25,706 bases of DNA from a virus. The stretch covers positions 1-25,706 of IMG/VR virus record IMGVR_UViG_3300042542_001416; one strand, written 5' to 3'. Under the pieces are notes generated by a model. That model had not been told where the DNA came from, searched no databases, and saw only the letters and a list, made by a program, of their open reading frames with translations. The position numbers were made by a program, and so were the translations under genes. Positions 6,001 through 24,023 of the stretch are shown one piece after another; the stretch's first letter is position 1; the number at the start of each line of letters is the position of its first letter.

Positions 6001-6027
6001 GTTTCACGATGGTCGGCCGCATACAGC

Positions 6028-6271
6028 GTGTTACCCATATGAGGCGTGCCGGCCATCACCCAATACCAGGAGGATTTATGAACCAAGTTTCGAGCGGAGG
6101 CCCCGATTGCCATGTTACCCAGCAGGCGCTTGCCGACGCTCACCTTTTCGGAAGTGGTGGTCATCATAGACGTGTTACCCAATCAGCCATTACCACTACT
6201 TCCGCCCCTTCATGCGCGGGAGGCCATCCATGTCGCGCCACCCAATCAACAATTGCCGCCCGCGCTACCCA
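6028..6271 (+). repeat. Dispersed in-frame TTACCCA-type repeats
   Basis: The core GTGTTACCCA or close variants occur at 6028-6037, 6112-6121, 6172-6181, 6235-6244 and 6262-6271. Spacings are 84, 60, 63 and 27 bp, all multiples of three, so each encodes a (R/H)(V/A)T(Q/H) tetrapeptide in the frame of the following protein. The first copy lies upstream of the ATG chosen for that protein, which leaves open a longer start at 6009. Confidence 0.6.
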
Positions 6272-7043
6272 AGTCGATGCCATCCGAGAGAACTACCACC
6301 AGTTCAAAGACCTTCAGCGCGCCGAGGTTCGGTTGACGCTGCAGATCAAGGCGCTGTGTCGCCGGGCTTGCGATGGTGACGCCAAGGCGGCCGATGCCGT
6401 CTATCGTGAAGTCGATGCGTTGTTTGACGATAACGGCGCCGGCATTGACAGTGCCGGACGTGAAGCGCAGATCGTGGCGCAGGTAGCCCTTCCGTTGATG
6501 ACGGCGCGCGCAGGAGTGCATCGGGCAAGCCTGACCCCGAAGAAGGCGGCCGAGAAGCTGGCGAAGCGATTGGATCACTGCAAAGAGTTTCTGGAATCAA
6601 CCATGGGATTTGGCTATGGCGGCCTCGCAATGATCGTCGGCGAAGCCGGAGACCTCGGGAACTATGCAAACCCAGGGAAGCTCTGGAAGCGCATGGGCAT
6701 GGCGCCGGTCAATGGTCAGTGCTGCGCGACGTGGCGCGCCAAAGGTGGTCTGTCGGCCACCGAGTGGGAAGCCGCCGGCTATTCGCCAAGACGAAGGTCT
6801 GTGATGTACCAGATCACCGACTCCATGCTGAAGAACAAGGCCTGTCCGTTCTATGCTGTGTATATCGACCGCAAGGCCTACCTTGCTGCCCGAGAAGAGG
6901 CGAACGGTAAGTTGATTCTTCCGGCGAAGAAGATCACGAAACAGAATTCCAATGTCGCGATCAGCCTCGGTCATATCGACAACATGGCTCGACACTACGC
7001 CGCGAAGCGTCTGCTGCGCGAACTGTGGAAGTGCTGGCGGTGA
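6078..7043 (+). CDS. Phage protein with IS110-type Transposase_20-like domain and N-terminal VTQ repeats
   Basis: This protein has 321 residues from ATG 6078, which follows AGGAGG at 6068-6073. Residues 1-65 are a disordered-looking S/T/H/Q-rich region with repeated VTQ/ATQ tetrapeptides. A helical stretch follows (about 75-165). The C-terminal part resembles the helix-hairpin-helix region of IS110/IS116/IS902 transposases: GFGYGGLAMIVGEAGDLGNY, then LWKRMGMAPV, then YSPRRRSVMYQITDSMLK, then HYAAKRLLRELWK. The N-terminal RuvC-like DEDD catalytic domain of true IS110 transposases is missing, and there are no visible element ends, so this is not an insertion sequence. Similar proteins occur in phages at this position; the function is unknown. 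DNA or RNA binding is a reasonable guess. Confidence 0.75.
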   Translation: MNQVSSGGPDCHVTQQALADAHLFGSGGHHRRVTQSAITTTSAPSCAGGHPCRATQSTIAARATQVDAIRENYHQFKDLQRAEVRLTLQIKALCRRACDGDAKAADAVYREVDALFDDNGAGIDSAGREAQIVAQVALPLMTARAGVHRASLTPKKAAEKLAKRLDHCKEFLESTMGFGYGGLAMIVGEAGDLGNYANPGKLWKRMGMAPVNGQCCATWRAKGGLSATEWEAAGYSPRRRSVMYQITDSMLKNKACPFYAVYIDRKAYLAAREEANGKLILPAKKITKQNSNVAISLGHIDNMARHYAAKRLLRELWKCWR

Positions 7044-15270: not shown

Positions 15271-16578
15271 ATGTCTCAAACCAATGTAGCCAGCGGCTCC
15301 AGTCAGGCCGCACTGATCTACGGCGCCGCGCTCTTCGCGCAAGCTCAGAAGAAAGCCGGCACTTTCCGCAACATGGTCGGTGGCAAGCCCACCATGGCCG
15401 AAGTCGACGGCAAACTGTCCAAGCTCCAGACGGACCCCGGCATGCCGATCGTCGAGATCATGGACCTGACCAAGACGGCCGGCGACCAGGCCCGAATGGA
15501 CTGCATCGACATCGCAACCGCGAAGCCGATCATGGGCGACCGCAACGCCGAAGGGCGCGGCACGCCGATGTCCTTCAGCAACATGGACGTCAAGATCGAC
15601 CAATGGACCTTCCCGGTGAATGCCGGCGGGCGCATGTCGCAGCAGCGTGTCATCCATGATCTGCGCCGTCTGGCGCGTTCGCAGGCCGTGGGCCTCACCG
15701 CCCGCTACTTCGAACAGCGCACGCTCTGCCATCTGGCAGGCGCTCGCGGTCAGGTCGACGGTAACGATTGGGTGGTTCCGCTGCAGTTCGCTTCCGGCGC
15801 TTCGTCCGGCGGTGATGCGGACTTCGCCGACATCATGGTCAACCCGATCCTGGCGCCGACCTACAACCGTCACTACGTCGTCAATGGCACCGACCTGACC
15901 CAAGGCGGCGCGCAACTGGCATCGATCGCCTCGACCGACGACCTGCTGCTGGATCACATCGACCAGATCCGCAACATCATCGACAACCTGGAACTGACTT
16001 TGCAGCCGGTCCGGATTCCCGATGATCCCGCGGCCAACGACGAACCGATGTGGGTCATGCTGGCGCCGCCGAACGTGTATTCGCAACTGCTGCGCGCGGG
16101 CTCCCTGCGCTCGTTCCAGCAGAACGCGATCAACCGCGCGGCCTACGGCAGCAAGCACCCGCTGTTCCGTGGCGAGGTCGGCATGTGGAACGGCATCCTG
16201 GTCAAGAAGATCAGCCGTGCCGTGCGCTTCCTGCCCAGCGACTACGCCAAGATCATCACGTCGGCCAACGCGGCGACGGCGACCGAGACGGCGCAGCAGG
16301 TCAATACCGGCCTGACGTCTGGTTACGGCGTCGAACGCTGCATCGTGCTGGGCGCCCAAGCTCTGGCCAATGCCTACGGCAAGGATTCCGCCAGCGGCAC
16401 GCACTACTCCTGGGCCGAGAAGCTGCACAACTTCGAGCGCGAGCCCGAGTTCGCAGTCTTCGGCGTGGAGGGTGCGACCAAGGTGCGTTTCAACGTGCCC
16501 GACTCGACCGGCGCCAAGATCCCGACCGATCACGGAACGCTCGTGGTCGACGTCGCGGTTAAGTTGTCGGCCTCCTGA
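15271..16578 (+). CDS. Major capsid protein, N4-gp56/DUF4043 type
   Basis: This 435-residue protein is preceded by AGGAGA at 15259-15264. It fits the N4-gp56/DUF4043 major capsid family. The N-terminal arm is followed by KPTMAEVDGKLSKLQTDPGM, then TPMSFSNMDVKIDQWTFPV, a helix RLARSQAVGLTARYFEQRTL, the segment MLAPPNVYSQLL, and HPLFRGEVGMWNGILVKK with a C-terminal GVERCIVLGAQALA. The subunits build the icosahedral shell. The gene stands alone between two hairpins, consistent with strong separate expression. It follows the scaffold as expected. Confidence 0.87.
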   Translation: MSQTNVASGSSQAALIYGAALFAQAQKKAGTFRNMVGGKPTMAEVDGKLSKLQTDPGMPIVEIMDLTKTAGDQARMDCIDIATAKPIMGDRNAEGRGTPMSFSNMDVKIDQWTFPVNAGGRMSQQRVIHDLRRLARSQAVGLTARYFEQRTLCHLAGARGQVDGNDWVVPLQFASGASSGGDADFADIMVNPILAPTYNRHYVVNGTDLTQGGAQLASIASTDDLLLDHIDQIRNIIDNLELTLQPVRIPDDPAANDEPMWVMLAPPNVYSQLLRAGSLRSFQQNAINRAAYGSKHPLFRGEVGMWNGILVKKISRAVRFLPSDYAKIITSANAATATETAQQVNTGLTSGYGVERCIVLGAQALANAYGKDSASGTHYSWAEKLHNFEREPEFAVFGVEGATKVRFNVPDSTGAKIPTDHGTLVVDVAVKLSAS

Positions 16579-16648: not shown

Positions 16649-17098
16649 ATGGGAACTGTAAAAAGCACCAGCAAGGGGCCTGCCTACTCCAGCGATGGCG
16701 GCAATGCGTCCGTGTTCTGTGATTCCGTCGGCGTCACCAATGCCGACATCGACGCCGCCGACATCATCAAGTTGGTTCGCGTTCCTGCCGGTACCGATGT
16801 GCATCGCGTCACCGTCAAGACCACCGAGCTCGACAGCCACGGAACGCCGACACTGACCGCCAAGATCGGCTTCACACCGATTGACGGCAGTTCGGCAGTG
16901 TCCGGTGCAGACACGGCCGTATCGGCGGATGCCGCATGGGGGCAGAACGCCGAAACGCTGACCTTCAACGTCTTCCCGCCCTATCGGGTCGAGGTTGATT
17001 CCTGGCTGACCTTCGTGATCGGCACTGGCGCGGCGACGGAGGCCGCCACCGGCACCGTCTACGCCAAGGTTGAGGGCGAAGCGCTTGGCGTCCAGTAA
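16649..17098 (+). CDS. Beta-rich structural protein, probable head accessory
   Basis: This 149-residue protein has AGGAG at 16636-16640. It is beta-rich, with strand-like alternation (VHRVTVKTTELDSHGTPTL, then SWLTFVIGTGAATEAATGTV). Its place directly after the major capsid and its small beta-rich form suggest a decoration or head-completion protein. I do not recognise a family. It lies between two hairpins, like its neighbours. Confidence 0.65.
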   Translation: MGTVKSTSKGPAYSSDGGNASVFCDSVGVTNADIDAADIIKLVRVPAGTDVHRVTVKTTELDSHGTPTLTAKIGFTPIDGSSAVSGADTAVSADAAWGQNAETLTFNVFPPYRVEVDSWLTFVIGTGAATEAATGTVYAKVEGEALGVQ

Positions 17099-17969: not shown

Positions 17970-18599
17970 ATGGCCGCATTGACCGCGTTGAGGCCGAAGG
18001 TGCAGCCGCACGTTCCAGGCTGTCCGTTGGCGATTGTCGACGACGCCATCCTCGACGCGGTGATCGACTTCTGCAACCGCTCCCGGGCCTACCGCTTTAC
18101 GCCCGCTGAGATAACCGTTGTGGCCAGTACCGCCAATTACACGGTGCCTGGGCTTCCGGCAGAAACGGAAGTCGCGTGGCTGCTGGCGGCAGAGTACGAC
18201 GACCGGCCGATCGATACCCCAGATACCGGGTCAATTCCGCAGTCTTGGGCGACGGAAGAGGGCGAGGTCACCGCGGCCGTGATGTACTCGGCAACGCAGA
18301 TCGGGCTGCGTAAGGTTCCCGACGAGGCATCGACGCTGAACGTGCGCCTGGCGCTGCGCCCGACCTTGAGCGCAACCGCCTTCCCCGACGAGTTCAACAC
18401 GCTGTACCGGGAACAGATCGCCGCCGGCGCCCTGGCGCGCTTGTACGCTATGCCAAAGAAAGAATGGTCGGCGCCGGACCTTGTAGCGCTCAACGAGGAC
18501 AAGTTCGAGGGTGGCATCAAAGCCGCCGAGTACCGCGCTGACCGCGGTAGCGCCAATGCACCAGCCCGCACCACGTTGAGCCTGATTGGGGGTCACTGA
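17970..18599 (+). CDS. Head-tail adaptor-like protein
   Basis: This 209-residue protein has a helical start (PGCPLAIVDDAILDAVIDFC, then NRSRAYRFTP) followed by a beta-rich part (ITVVASTANYTVPGLP) and a long C-terminal helix region (EQIAAGALARLYAMPKKEW, then EDKFEGGIKAA). This order matches the adaptor or connector proteins that sit under the portal in short-tailed phages. The predicted role is to bridge the portal and the tail. The family assignment rests on pattern and position only. It overlaps the next gene by one base (TGATG). Confidence 0.7.
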   Translation: MAALTALRPKVQPHVPGCPLAIVDDAILDAVIDFCNRSRAYRFTPAEITVVASTANYTVPGLPAETEVAWLLAAEYDDRPIDTPDTGSIPQSWATEEGEVTAAVMYSATQIGLRKVPDEASTLNVRLALRPTLSATAFPDEFNTLYREQIAAGALARLYAMPKKEWSAPDLVALNEDKFEGGIKAAEYRADRGSANAPARTTLSLIGGH

Positions 18600-19545: not shown

Positions 19546-20139
19546 ATGGGATTCAAACTCTCTTCCGCCATCGCCATCGCCCGCGGGGTGCTGAACGACA
19601 CCACGCCGGACTACCGCTATTCGGATGCCGATCTGCTGGAGTACGGCAACGGCTGCCTGCGTTCGCTGCCGAACATCAAGCCCAGCCTGCTCTACACCGA
19701 AGGCGAACTCGAATGCGAGGCCGATCAGGCGCTGCAGTCGGTTTCCTTCGATGACGCGCATTCGCTGGTCAATGTGCTGCGGATCAAGAACGGCGCCGCG
19801 CTGACACCCTTCGACAAGGCCGCGCTCGACGCCTTCATGCCGGGCTGGATGGCGGCTACCAGTGCCGCTGCCCAGCAATGGGCACCGAACGCCGACGACC
19901 CGGTGCGCTTCTACCTGAATCCTCCGGCGCCCACTGGCCAGGTGCTGATCGTCCTCTATGTCCGCATCCCCGGTCCCTTCACCGCGAGCGAGGACACCGG
20001 CCTGCCGGAAACCATCACGGAAGCCGTGGCCGATTACATGGTGGGGATGGCCGAGTCACGCAACGACGAGAGCGTGGTTTCAGCGAGGGCAACGCAATTC
20101 ATCAATCAATTCGCCGCCCGGCTGGGCGCCAAGGGGTAA
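19546..20139 (+). CDS. Adaptor/tail-joining protein, 197 aa
   Basis: ATG 19546 lies two bases after the previous stop. The N terminus is helical (AIAIARGVLNDTTPDYRYSD, then DLLEYGNGCLRSLP), a pattern that I recall in short-tailed phage adaptor or gp11-like proteins. A beta-rich middle follows (RFYLNPPAPTGQVLIVLYVR), and then a C-terminal helix (ETITEAVADYMVGMAESRND, then RATQFINQFAARLG). The role is likely to join the neck to the tail hub, ahead of the receptor-binding gene. An in-frame upstream ATG (19264) reads through the previous gene and is rejected. Confidence 0.72.
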   Translation: MGFKLSSAIAIARGVLNDTTPDYRYSDADLLEYGNGCLRSLPNIKPSLLYTEGELECEADQALQSVSFDDAHSLVNVLRIKNGAALTPFDKAALDAFMPGWMAATSAAAQQWAPNADDPVRFYLNPPAPTGQVLIVLYVRIPGPFTASEDTGLPETITEAVADYMVGMAESRNDESVVSARATQFINQFAARLGAKG

Positions 20140-20142
20140 GCC

Positions 20143-21870
20143 ATGTCCTATGTCGCAAAAAACAACGCCTACAGCACGCTGGCCGCCGGAATTACCGATA
20201 CCGATGTCAGCGTATCCGTTCAGGCTGGCAAGGGCGCTCTATTCGCCGTTACCGCGCCGGACTACACCTACGCCACGCTGGAGGATTCCAGCGGGAATAT
20301 CGAGGTCATCAAGGTAACGGCCAGATCAACCGACTCGCTGACAATTGAGCGCGGCAAGGATGGCACGACGGCCCGATCATGGAATATCGGTGACATCATC
20401 GAGTGCCGGCCCTGTGCGGCGGCGATGAACGACTACGCCGTAGCGCCACAAATTGCAGGGGCGACCGCCAAGGCTACGCCGGTAGATGCGGACGTGTTCG
20501 GGTTCATTGATTCGGCGGCATCATGGGCGCTGAAGAGCTTTACATGGGCAAACTATAAGGCGGCGCTGAAGACGTACTTCGACACGCTTTACCCAGGCAA
20601 AGCAGAAATTCAGGGCCAAGCGCTGATTGCCTTCACTACTGCCGGCACCAGCACTGCCTACACGCTGACGCCATCGCCGGCCATTGCTGCGCTGGCAGCA
20701 AACCAGTTGTTCCGCGTTACCTTCCATACTGCCGCTGGCGCGACGCCGACACTGGCAGTTTCCGGGCTTGCTGCCAAGTCGCTGAAATACCGTGATGCCA
20801 CCGGAGCCAAGCAGGCGGTGACAGTTTCGCAAGCTCCGTCTGGCTGGGTAACAGATGTCGAGTATGACGGCACCGATTGGGTGCTGGTCAATACACCAGG
20901 CTCTGCTGGTGGCTCCGATGGCCTTTTCTACAAAACCGACCCAACCGCCGTTGCCTTTACCAAGACTGGAGCGGGCACGGCACAGATCAAGGCCGGCACC
21001 AAGCTCGATGTGGGCGGTACGCTGGTGACGTTTGTTTCGGCGACCTCGATCACCATGCCCACGCTTACCGCTGGCACGGACTACGCGATATGGGTCAAGA
21101 CGGACGCCACCATTCAGGCGACGACCGATTTTGCCTCTGCACCGGGTGCTGGCACGTGGCGCAAGATTGGCGGCTTCCATTACGCGCCGGGGGGCAATGC
21201 GACCGGCACCACGGGCGGTGATACCACGCCGGCCATTAACGAGTACAGCTTGTGGGATGTGAAGTTCCGCCCTGCGTGTTCTGATCCGCGCGGTATGGCG
21301 CTGGTGGCGGGCAGTTTCTGGACGGACATTTACCTGCTGGGTGTGGATCACCTGACCAACGGCACCAGCAAGTACAACGTGACGATTGCCGATGGCAGCA
21401 GCCCGCCGAAGATACCGACCAAGTTCGGCGGCAATGGCTCGACGGCCTACAGCACGCTCAACTGGTGGGAAGCCAACGAAGTTCTGCAATCGTGGGGCAA
21501 ACGCTCGCCGACCTATGACGAATTCGCGGCGCTGGCCTATGGCACCACCGAGGCCAGTTCTGGCGGAACCGATCCGACATCGACCATCCTGCGCAATGCC
21601 TACACCAGCAAGTGGGGCGCGATGCTGGCGGCAGGGAATATGTGGATATGGGGTGCCAACTTCGGCGGCGGCGCAGCCGGCGCTGCATGGACGGCCAATA
21701 CCGTTGGCCGTGGCTCCACGTATCAGATGGAAAACGCCGTGCTCTTTGGGGGCGGCTGGGGCAGCGCGTCGGACTCCGGTTCGCGTTGTTCGAGCTGGGG
21801 CAACTCGCCCACGAACTCGCTCAGCAACATCGGGGCGCGCGGCGTCTGTGACCACCTGATTATTGACTGA
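20143..21870 (+). CDS. mtd: DGR-diversified receptor-binding protein (Mtd-like tail fibre/tropism determinant)
   Basis: This 575-residue protein is the target of the retroelement. Residues 1-95 resemble a tail-fibre attachment module ([19 protein letters not shown], then [20 protein letters not shown]). Residues about 155-250 are a second fibre module ([20 protein letters not shown], then [17 protein letters not shown]). Residues about 370-575 look like the C-type-lectin domain of Bordetella phage Mtd ([19 protein letters not shown], then YNVTIADGS, then [10 protein letters not shown] at the end). The variable repeat covers residues 530-570. From memory BPP-1 Mtd has 381 residues, so this protein carries a much longer N-terminal part. 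It probably sits at the tail tip and binds host receptors, with its binding face changed by the DGR. Confidence 0.9.
21731..21851 (+). repeat. DGR variable repeat (VR)
   Basis: These 121 bp align without gaps to the template repeat at 22277-22397. There are 13 differences and all 13 fall at template adenines: 11 A to G, one A to C, one A to T. The changes give nine amino-acid differences (four N/D to G or T to A, three N to S, one N to D, one N to L) and one silent change. The template has 30 adenines, so 17 are unchanged. This pattern is the direct mark of adenine-specific mutagenic reverse transcription. Confidence 0.97.
21831..21865 (+). promoter_or_regulatory. Initiation of mutagenic homing site (GC block plus IMH)
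   Basis: Bases 21831-21844 are 14 consecutive G/C bases. They are followed by a 21-bp element (21845-21865) that matches its template-side counterpart (22391-22411) at 15 of 21 positions, with mismatches that are not limited to adenine. The order and lengths, a 14-bp G/C block then a 21-bp IMH, are the same as I recall for Bordetella phage BPP-1, where they set the 3' limit of transfer. Confidence 0.85.
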
Positions 21871-21886
21871 GGCGGCGACAGCCGCC
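21871..21886 (+). promoter_or_regulatory. DGR target-recognition hairpin downstream of the VR
   Basis: GGCGGC (21871-21876) and GCCGCC (21881-21886) form a perfect six-pair stem around the loop GACA. It begins right after the target-gene stop and five bases after the IMH. In BPP-1 a hairpin or cruciform with a GRNA tetraloop in this place is needed for efficient homing; GACA fits GRNA. There is no T tract, which argues against a terminator. No equivalent lies at the TR. Confidence 0.8.
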
Positions 21887-21896
21887 GGGGATAGAC

Positions 21897-22277
21897 ATGG
21901 AGCCTGAAAAGGATGCAGTGCAGTCGTATGAGCAAATGCTGATCGTTGAGAAATACGAGACAGTGATTGCTTATCTGTATCCCATCGCCAACAACATCAA
22001 GCGTTGCCACGGCACGGCGCGCGACATGTTTATCCAGTGCCTGCTGGGGCAGGTGCAATTGATTGTTGAGGCGGGGAAGTCAAGCCAGATTTCCCGCCTT
22101 TACATCGCGGATGCGGGTTTGTCGCATCTGCGATTCTGGCTGCGGTTTCTGTCGACCGAGAAGGTACGCGGCATAACGCCTCACCAGGTGCAAACAGCGC
22201 AGGTGCTGATTGCCGAGGTGGGCCGATTGCTGGGTGCATGGATCGTGAAACAGAAGCGTAGGGGGCAACATGGGTAA
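21897..22277 (+). CDS. avd: Accessory variability determinant (DGR RT partner)
   Basis: This 126-residue, mostly helical basic protein matches Avd, the four-helix-bundle protein that forms a pentamer, binds the reverse transcriptase and template RNA and is needed for mutagenic homing. Recognisable segments are QMLIVEKYETVIAYLYPIAN near residue 14, then ARDMFIQCLLGQVQLIVEAG, then LYIADAGLSHLRFWLRFLS, and TPHQVQTAQVLIAEVGRLLG near the end, followed by a basic tail (KQKRRG). From memory the BPP-1 protein has 128 residues with similar segments. Its TAA stop (22275-22277) overlaps the first base of the TR. Confidence 0.93.
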   Translation: MEPEKDAVQSYEQMLIVEKYETVIAYLYPIANNIKRCHGTARDMFIQCLLGQVQLIVEAGKSSQISRLYIADAGLSHLRFWLRFLSTEKVRGITPHQVQTAQVLIAEVGRLLGAWIVKQKRRGQHG

Positions 22278-22397
22278 AAACGCCGTGCTCTTTGGGGGCA
22301 ACTGGGACAACACGTCGAACTCCGGTTCGCGTTGTTCAAACTGGAACAACTCGCCCACGAACTCGAACAACAACATCGGGGCGCGCGGCGTCTGTGA
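22277..22397 (+). repeat. DGR template repeat (TR)
   Basis: This 121-bp master copy of the variable region has many AAC codons placed where substitution of the first two bases yields a wide range of amino acids. In the target frame it would read GGNWDNTSNSGSRC, then NWNNSPTNSNNN, then IGARGVC. It starts at the last base of the avd stop codon and ends where similarity to the VR drops. The short open frame across it (22270-22584) is probably not a gene. Confidence 0.97.
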
Positions 22398-22411
22398 GGA
22401 CAGGAATTTTG
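22391..22411 (+). promoter_or_regulatory. IMH*-like element at the 3' end of the TR
   Basis: These 21 bases correspond to the IMH of the variable repeat with six mismatches (positions 8, 9, 12, 13, 16 and 18), at least four of them not adenines in the template. Such a partner that differs from IMH keeps the TR from acting as a recipient, which explains one-way information flow from TR to VR. Confidence 0.75.
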
Positions 22412-22576
22412 CAGTTTTTTCGCTCTGCCGACGTTACGGCGCGGCAGGCCGGCCTTCTTTCCTGTGGTCAGCCATGGTGTCCTGCTTCGGCGAATACCTT
22501 TGGGGGTCTGGCATAGCGCCTAGTAGCCACCGTGTTGTGGCGAATGGCGCGGCCAGCGTTTTTCGGGTGTCCGGTT

Positions 22577-23563
22577 TTGCCTAAACGGCACGGACACTTG
22601 ATCGAGCGGATTGCCGATATGGACAATCTGCGCGATGCCTATGTCAAAACCGCACGCGGCAAGCGGCAGACATGGGGCTTTCTGGAATTCAAGGAATACG
22701 CGGACATCAATCTGCGGGCGATGCGCGAGCAGATTCTGGATTCCGGCTGGGTGCAGGGTGCGTACCGCGAATTTACGGTGTATGAACCCAAGCCGCGCCT
22801 GATTTCGGCACTGGATTTCAAAGACCGGCTGGCACAGCACGCACTGGTGAATGTGATCGGCCCGATCTTTGACCGCGCCCTGCTGCCGGGAACCTTTGCC
22901 TGCCGCACCGGCAAGGGCACGCATGCCGGGGTGAATCATGTCCAGGCAGAGCTACGCCGTACCGGGGCGACGCACTTTCTGAAGACGGATTACCGTAAAT
23001 TCTTCCCGTCGATCAACCGGCCGATTCTGCACGCGCTGATCGCGCGCAAGATCAAATGCCGCCCAACGCTGCGGATGATTACGGCCATGGTGCCGGCCAC
23101 CGGCTGCGGCCTGCCGATTGGTAGCCTGACCAGTCAGCTTTTTGCCAATGTGTATGGCGATGTGATTGACCGCAGCATCCATTTCGATCTGGGCGCGCGT
23201 AGCTGGGCGCGGTATATGGACGACATCGTGATTCTGTCGTCCAACCCCTACGAGCTGCGCGGCTGGTTTGAGGACATCGAGCGGGTCAGCCTGGCGCGGC
23301 TGCACCTGGGCATCAGCAAGTGGCAGGTGTCGCCCGTGGCACGCGGGGTGAACTTTCTGGGCTATCGCATCTGGCCGCGTCACAAGCTGCTGCGCAAGGC
23401 GTCGGTCATCAGTGCAAAACGCAAGATCACGCGCTATCAGGCGCATGGCGAGACGGCCATTCTGGGCCGGTTTTTGGCGTCATGGCGCGGACACGCCATG
23501 CACGCGGACACGTGCAATTTATTCAATCATCTGGAGAAAACTCATGGGATCACCTGTCATTAG
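22577..23563 (+). CDS. brt: Diversity-generating retroelement reverse transcriptase
   Basis: This enzyme makes error-prone cDNA from the TR. It contains the first catalytic aspartate in LKTDYRKFFPSI (D138), the DGR-type motif GLPIGSLTSQ at 178-187 and the active site YMDD at 213-216. These are followed by GVNFLGYRIWPRHKLLRK and a short thumb ending in HLEKTHGITCH. I chose the TTG at 22577, giving PKRHGHLIERI at the N terminus and 328 residues, the length I recall for the BPP-1 enzyme. ATGs at 22532 and 22544 would add 11-15 residues with no family support, although the TTG has only a weak ribosome-binding site. Confidence 0.93.
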   Translation: MPKRHGHLIERIADMDNLRDAYVKTARGKRQTWGFLEFKEYADINLRAMREQILDSGWVQGAYREFTVYEPKPRLISALDFKDRLAQHALVNVIGPIFDRALLPGTFACRTGKGTHAGVNHVQAELRRTGATHFLKTDYRKFFPSINRPILHALIARKIKCRPTLRMITAMVPATGCGLPIGSLTSQLFANVYGDVIDRSIHFDLGARSWARYMDDIVILSSNPYELRGWFEDIERVSLARLHLGISKWQVSPVARGVNFLGYRIWPRHKLLRKASVISAKRKITRYQAHGETAILGRFLASWRGHAMHADTCNLFNHLEKTHGITCH

Positions 23564-24023
23564 TACCCGCGCCGATCTGGACGCGCTCGCCGGCACACCG
23601 GCTCACGCCGAATTCATGAGCATCCTGCGCGGCTCATTGTGGCGGCTGGAGAAAGACGACGTGGCGGCAACGTGGCGTGCCGTGGCGGATGATTCAACCA
23701 TCGCACGCTTCGGATTTGTGCGGGCGGATTTTCCGGGGGCGGTGGCGCCGGAATTGCCGGAATACGTGGCCCCGCCATCCGACGTGCCCAAGTCGGTGAC
23801 GATGCGTCAGGCACGGCTGGCCCTGCTGGCCGCCGGCATGCTGGCCGATGTGAATGCGGCCGTGGCCGCTATGCCCGGCACCGAAGGCGATGCGGCGCGG
23901 ATTGAGTGGGAATTTGCCGCAACGGTAGATCGCACCAGTCCGCTGGTGCAGGGGCTGGCGGTGGCGCTCTCGATGACCGAGGCGCAACTGGACGGGCTGT
24001 TTGTGGCCGGGGCGGCGCTGTGA
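23544..24023 (+). CDS. Small tail-associated phage protein, 159 aa
   Basis: ATG 23544 lies inside the 3' end of the reverse transcriptase gene (20-bp overlap) and follows CTGGAGAA. The protein has a loop-rich first half with PELPEYVAPPSDVPKSVTMR and a helical second half: QARLALLAAGMLADVNAAV, then EWEFAATVDRTSPLVQGLAV, then MTEAQLDGLF. I recall this C-terminal pattern at the end of many small phage proteins next to tail-fibre genes. Its function is not known; a chaperone or assembly role is possible. The longer frame from 23412 reads the RT region out of frame and is rejected. Confidence 0.75.
   Translation: MGSPVISTRADLDALAGTPAHAEFMSILRGSLWRLEKDDVAATWRAVADDSTIARFGFVRADFPGAVAPELPEYVAPPSDVPKSVTMRQARLALLAAGMLADVNAAVAAMPGTEGDAARIEWEFAATVDRTSPLVQGLAVALSMTEAQLDGLFVAGAAL

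Follow-up and report, generated by a model that had tools for sequence, protein, structure and literature searches.

The diversity-generating retroelement (DGR) of Bordetella phage BPP-1 (mtd-avd-TR-brt, NC_005357) is the described system that served as reference for the locus presented here. In BPP-1, the reverse transcriptase (RT) and Avd copy the RNA of the repeat TR inaccurately at adenines; guided by the IMH and by a hairpin, the resulting cDNA takes the place of the repeat VR (PMC3240598, PMC12875486). Specifically, this GC-rich hairpin is located downstream of VR, is characterized by a stem of 7-10 bp and a 4-nt GRNA loop, and is reported to be required for efficient retrohoming (PMC3240598).

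The DNA analysed, hereafter the window, is a single assembled viral fragment of 25,706 nucleotides (IMGVR_UViG_3300042542_001416, positions 1 to 25,706). Almost certainly, it carries a functional DGR of the BPP-1 type that would act on the tip of a tail fibre, in a phage with a P22-type head in which, less certainly, the distal fibre has been replaced. The kind of system and its mechanism are already known; what is new is this member with its fused target. An earlier, sequence-only reading had recognized the retroelement, while the target fusion, the hairpin, the DGR RNA and the swap seen against contig L045 go beyond it. For the comparisons, use was made of L003, L004 and L005, IMG/VR contigs carrying related DGRs, of L045 (IMGVR_UViG_3300037484_000017) and of L051 (IMGVR_UViG_3300025012_000101).

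The starting point of the sequence-only reading was a pair of gap-free repeats of 121 bp that differ at 13 sites, each of them an adenine in TR, and realignment returned the same result. In particular, no gap is needed to align VR (21731-21851) with TR (22277-22397), and an adenine of TR stands at every one of the 13 mismatches (A>G at 11, A>C at 1 and A>T at 1), an outcome with a chance probability of p = 1.2e-9 given the 30 A in the 121 bases of TR. An unbiased scan of the whole window found no further repeat pair with mismatches at A only. The claimed length of 121 bp holds for the A-only part of the repeats and falls short of their full extent: by homology to BPP-1, with its annotated 134-bp repeats, the natural ends lie about 14 bp farther, at ~21865 for VR (21731..21865, + strand) and at ~22411 for TR (22277..22411, + strand). 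The order target, avd, TR, RT was found on the + strand, as claimed and as in BPP-1.

The additional bases belong to the IMH, whose remainder occupies 21852-21865 in VR, and to the IMH* of TR (22391-22411). As defined for BPP-1 (PMC3240598), an IMH of this type comprises a (GC)14 stretch and a mismatched 21-bp element, and both are found in the window. The IMH (21831..21865, + strand) is composed of the (GC)14 CGGGGCGCGCGGCG (21831-21844), a feature shared with BPP-1 and present as the same sequence in VR and TR, followed by a 21-bp element (21845-21865) in which VR and TR differ at 6 of 21 bases. Non-adenine differences are among these six, as expected for IMH versus IMH*. Immediately 3′ of the target stop codon, a hairpin or cruciform (21871..21886, + strand; GGCGGC-GACA-GCCGCC) begins 19 nt beyond the A-only repeat, the same distance as in BPP-1. 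Its loop, GACA, is of the GRNA kind, and its stem of 6 perfect pairs is 1 bp below the published range. No other site on the + strand of the window combines a stem of at least 6 bp with a GRNA loop. Moreover, the position of the hairpin is kept, with small shifts, across 14 related elements, among which the stem varies by compensatory pairs; 11 distinct hairpin sequences occur, and 10 of the 11 have GRNA loops.

In BPP-1 as in the window, TR is followed by a structured RNA. The DGR RNA spacer (Sp; 22422..22557, + strand) matches the Rfam model RF03022 Phage_DGR over its full length (1-127) with 99 bits, the gathering cut-off being 50, and displays covarying helices. In the alignment of related elements 94.3% of the cells are paired, a value that leans in favour of the structure because this was derived from that same alignment, and 23 of 33 pairs show changes on both sides; the match to RF03022 is independent. 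As controls, none of 500 shuffles scored as high, and slid partners were paired in at most 45% of cells. The covariation of hairpin and RNA across the 14 elements argues for a functional DGR.

The two protein components claimed earlier, an Avd and a YMDD reverse transcriptase, could be matched to known families. The avd gene (21897..22277, + strand; 126 aa), the last base of which is also the first of TR, so that its stop codon reaches into the repeat, matches PF22296 bAvd (6.6e-29) and Bbp7 4dwl (1.5e-51). The RT (22577..23563, + strand; 328 aa) matches RVT_1 (1.5e-17) and 8ub7_A (3e-132), contains the motifs IGSLTSQ and YMDD, in agreement with the GxxxSQ and YxDD patterns of DGR-type enzymes, and is 60% identical to BPP-1 Brt. 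Its mechanical open reading frame begins at GTG 22532, whereas alignment to Brt places the start at TTG 22577; the latter, which gives a protein of the length of Brt, is most likely the start in use and would distinguish the gene from that of BPP-1. With respect to L003, dN/dS is ~0.17 for RT and for Avd, so that both appear to be under purifying selection, which argues for function. A search of genome contigs for relatives of the RT returned distant matches only, in an Opitutaceae MAG (50%) and in a betaproteobacterial MAG (36%). The end of the RT gene is overlapped by a bbp4-like gene (23544..24023, + strand; phrog_6034), which also follows RT in BPP-1 and carries no annotation as a DGR part. 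This gene was found in 21 DGR loci, including that of BPP-1 (bbp4), and in 0 capsid-related loci. Its N-terminal ~63 aa are conserved across Mtd-type DGR loci, the C-terminal part being common to some of them only; perhaps it is a fibre assembly factor.

The target gene (20143..21870, + strand) encodes a protein of 575 aa that comprises an anchor (residues 1-149), a shaft-like region (~150-260) and the Mtd second and C-type-lectin domains (261-575), the last two shared with BPP-1. Residues 6-121 match the tail fibre protein 8jov_1 (phmmer, 6e-12), the shaft-like region corresponds to phrog_8469, and a match to phrog_11262 was found as well. Residues 261-574 align to Mtd 1yu4 with an E-value of about 1e-114 (phmmer), and 271-372 represent the beta-sandwich domain mtd_2nd of Pfam. 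VR falls in the C-terminal C-type-lectin domain, where sequence comparison aligns it without gaps to the variable region of Mtd, and the segment of VR in which codons are altered is the one also affected in BPP-1 and L003. Judged from these matches, the target is a fusion of the phage's own tail-fibre anchor with an Mtd body. In BPP-1, by contrast, the fibre protein bbp9 is separate from the 381-aa Mtd; in the window, anchor and shaft stand in place of the N-terminal domain of BPP-1 Mtd. The folds are those of the solved Mtd, Avd and Brt, sequence similarity being sufficient to settle them. With its Mtd-type target, an Avd related to Bbp7, an RT related to Brt and the full-length RF03022 RNA, the element is complete and of the BPP-1 type, in agreement with the earlier claim. 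Among relatives, the N-terminal part fused to the Mtd body is phrog_29834 in L003, a long-tail-fibre-like part in L017 and, in L008, a phrog_1640 anchor, a family that BPP-1 has on bbp9. As the Mtd body is carried on such differing N-terminal parts, fibre anchors appear interchangeable.

Evidence of diversification comes from two of the sister contigs L003, L004 and L005. All three resemble the window in RT (78%), Avd (83%), Mtd body (77%) and hairpin, the sequence of which is identical, and differ from it in their fibre anchor, which is phrog_29834, and in lacking head genes that match. L004 and L005, which derive from different metagenome records, have 9867 bases in common out of 9871. VR contains three of the four differences, each at a site where TR has an adenine, and the TR is identical in both contigs, a coincidence with a chance of about 1e-7. 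Diversification in a natural population bears this signature, which here belongs to a sister element (RT 78% identical) and not to the window's own phage. From these adenine-site differences it follows that a BPP-1-type element diversifies in nature, and the sister contigs provide natural evidence of such elements diversifying in the environment.

In the window, the element is complete and probably working, and would diversify the receptor-binding tip of the tail fibre. From the TR-Sp RNA, the RT-Avd complex would make cDNA carrying errors wherever adenines of the template are miscopied; directed by the (GC)14/IMH and by the GRNA-loop hairpin, this cDNA would replace VR in the 3′-terminal part of the target gene. 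The replacement would in turn change surface residues of the C-type-lectin receptor-binding domain of the tail fibre. We infer that retrohoming takes place in the window's own phage and that it changes host range.

Two other explanations bear on this function. One is that the DGR has decayed, VR being a relic of earlier activity and homing having been lost. It would fit with the result that a pattern scan of the viral contigs, with N at adenines, found 0 second variants of VR or TR of the window's phage, and hence no variant VR in a collection that may lack near-identical records. Nevertheless, RT and Avd are open with motifs intact and dN/dS of ~0.17, hairpin, IMH and RNA are all intact, and every part is retained despite an amino-acid divergence of 22% between the RT and that of L003; decay is thus very improbable. 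Even less credit, in fact next to none, is given to the explanation that the frame containing TR, from ATG 22270 to TAA 22584, represents a genuine gene, and that the repeat arose by duplication of a gene end and subsequent divergence under selection. The frame is indeed open in the window all the way between avd and RT, but a duplication would leave mismatches not confined to adenines. As a candidate gene, it was rejected: in L015, L017, L018 and L021 a stop codon ends it 5-17 codons past TR, and the stretch instead covaries as RNA and matches RF03022. A functional DGR of the BPP-1 type remains the preferred reading.

A further difference from BPP-1 concerns the spectrum of changes in VR, which in the window are mostly A>G. 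The share of A>G is 11/13 in the window, 10/12 in L003 and 4/17 in BPP-1, and against 74/174 in other clade members the share of the window gives p=0.004, a nominal value from a test chosen after seeing the data. These figures are suggestive only: the RT lineage of the window may have a bias towards C misincorporation (A>G) unlike that of BPP-1. A changed RT is not claimed, because each VR is one selected haplotype with sites that are not independent, the test is post hoc, the VR differences between L004 and L005 include A>T and A>C, and the error profile of BPP-1 itself varies with sequence context (PMC12875486).

The head genes of the window encode a P22-type portal and a PF13252 capsid, and neither was found among the DGR relatives tested, BPP-1 included; the head module is thus different from that of BPP-1, as the sequence-only reading had it. 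Relatives of the phage were found via the capsid, the N-terminal half of the target having given none as a query in viral contigs. In L045, the capsid is 93% identical to that of the window, the virion genes show 77-84% DNA identity and the fibre anchor 72%. DNA homology with L045 runs to position 20568 of the window and resumes from 24375; between these points, L045 lacks a DGR and encodes a distal fibre of ordinary type, then a small protein of 92 aa and a small membrane protein. Since L045 has the same head and anchor but a fibre that is ordinary in its distal part and is not accompanied by a DGR, it would appear, less certainly than the function of the element, that a block made up of the Mtd body, avd, TR, RT and the bbp4-like gene took the place of the distal half of such a fibre, the phage keeping its own anchor.

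Exchange of the distal fibre together with the DGR is the simplest reading of these data. Alternatively, and as a rival to this evolutionary part only, a working DGR could have been inherited vertically in the phage family and lost in L045. In L019 (RT 59%) the same anchor family is joined to the Mtd body and followed by the same downstream genes, an arrangement that may predate the window's phage. We regard vertical descent as unlikely, given that the Mtd body is present in 0 of 80 capsid relatives though 51 of the 80 have the anchor, that RT relatives at 78% (L003) come without matching head genes, and that L051, of the same head family (capsid 66%), has the same fibre-anchor family and, at the same spot, a different DGR with its own Avd, TR/VR and RT (34%). 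A more general proposal can be made, for and against which the balance is even: the half of Mtd that binds the receptor may constitute, along with avd, TR, RT and the bbp4-like gene, a transplantable block that is spliced onto anchors of unrelated virions, and the P22-headed family may have captured DGRs at this anchor more than once, of the BPP-1 type in the window and perhaps in L019, and of a different RT lineage in L051. The window and L045 form a near-pair that differs at the fibre tip by presence or absence of a DGR, so that the exchange of a module for adaptive diversification can be tested directly, as can the anchor junction that it needs.

Some additional observations concern the contigs and the rest of the window. 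The second DGR lineage in L051 (14941-18211; RT 34%) has TR at 16935-17049 and VR at 16381-16495, and its 18 VR changes are 11 to G, 7 to C and 0 to T. L003 and L004 show 12 differences in 9203 bp and lose alignable similarity before ~1785 (region 1-1891), upstream of the target gene, which suggests a breakpoint due to recombination or to assembly. At its left end the window encodes a DNA N6/N4 methyltransferase (182-1417; PF01555), and in its left half a 344-aa protein (6009-7043) with a weak, below-cut-off match to Transposase_20 of the IS110 family. Finally, two separate genes (17970-18599 and 19546-20139) each match the SU10 adaptor family, and on this basis the window's phage appears to have two adaptor-like proteins.
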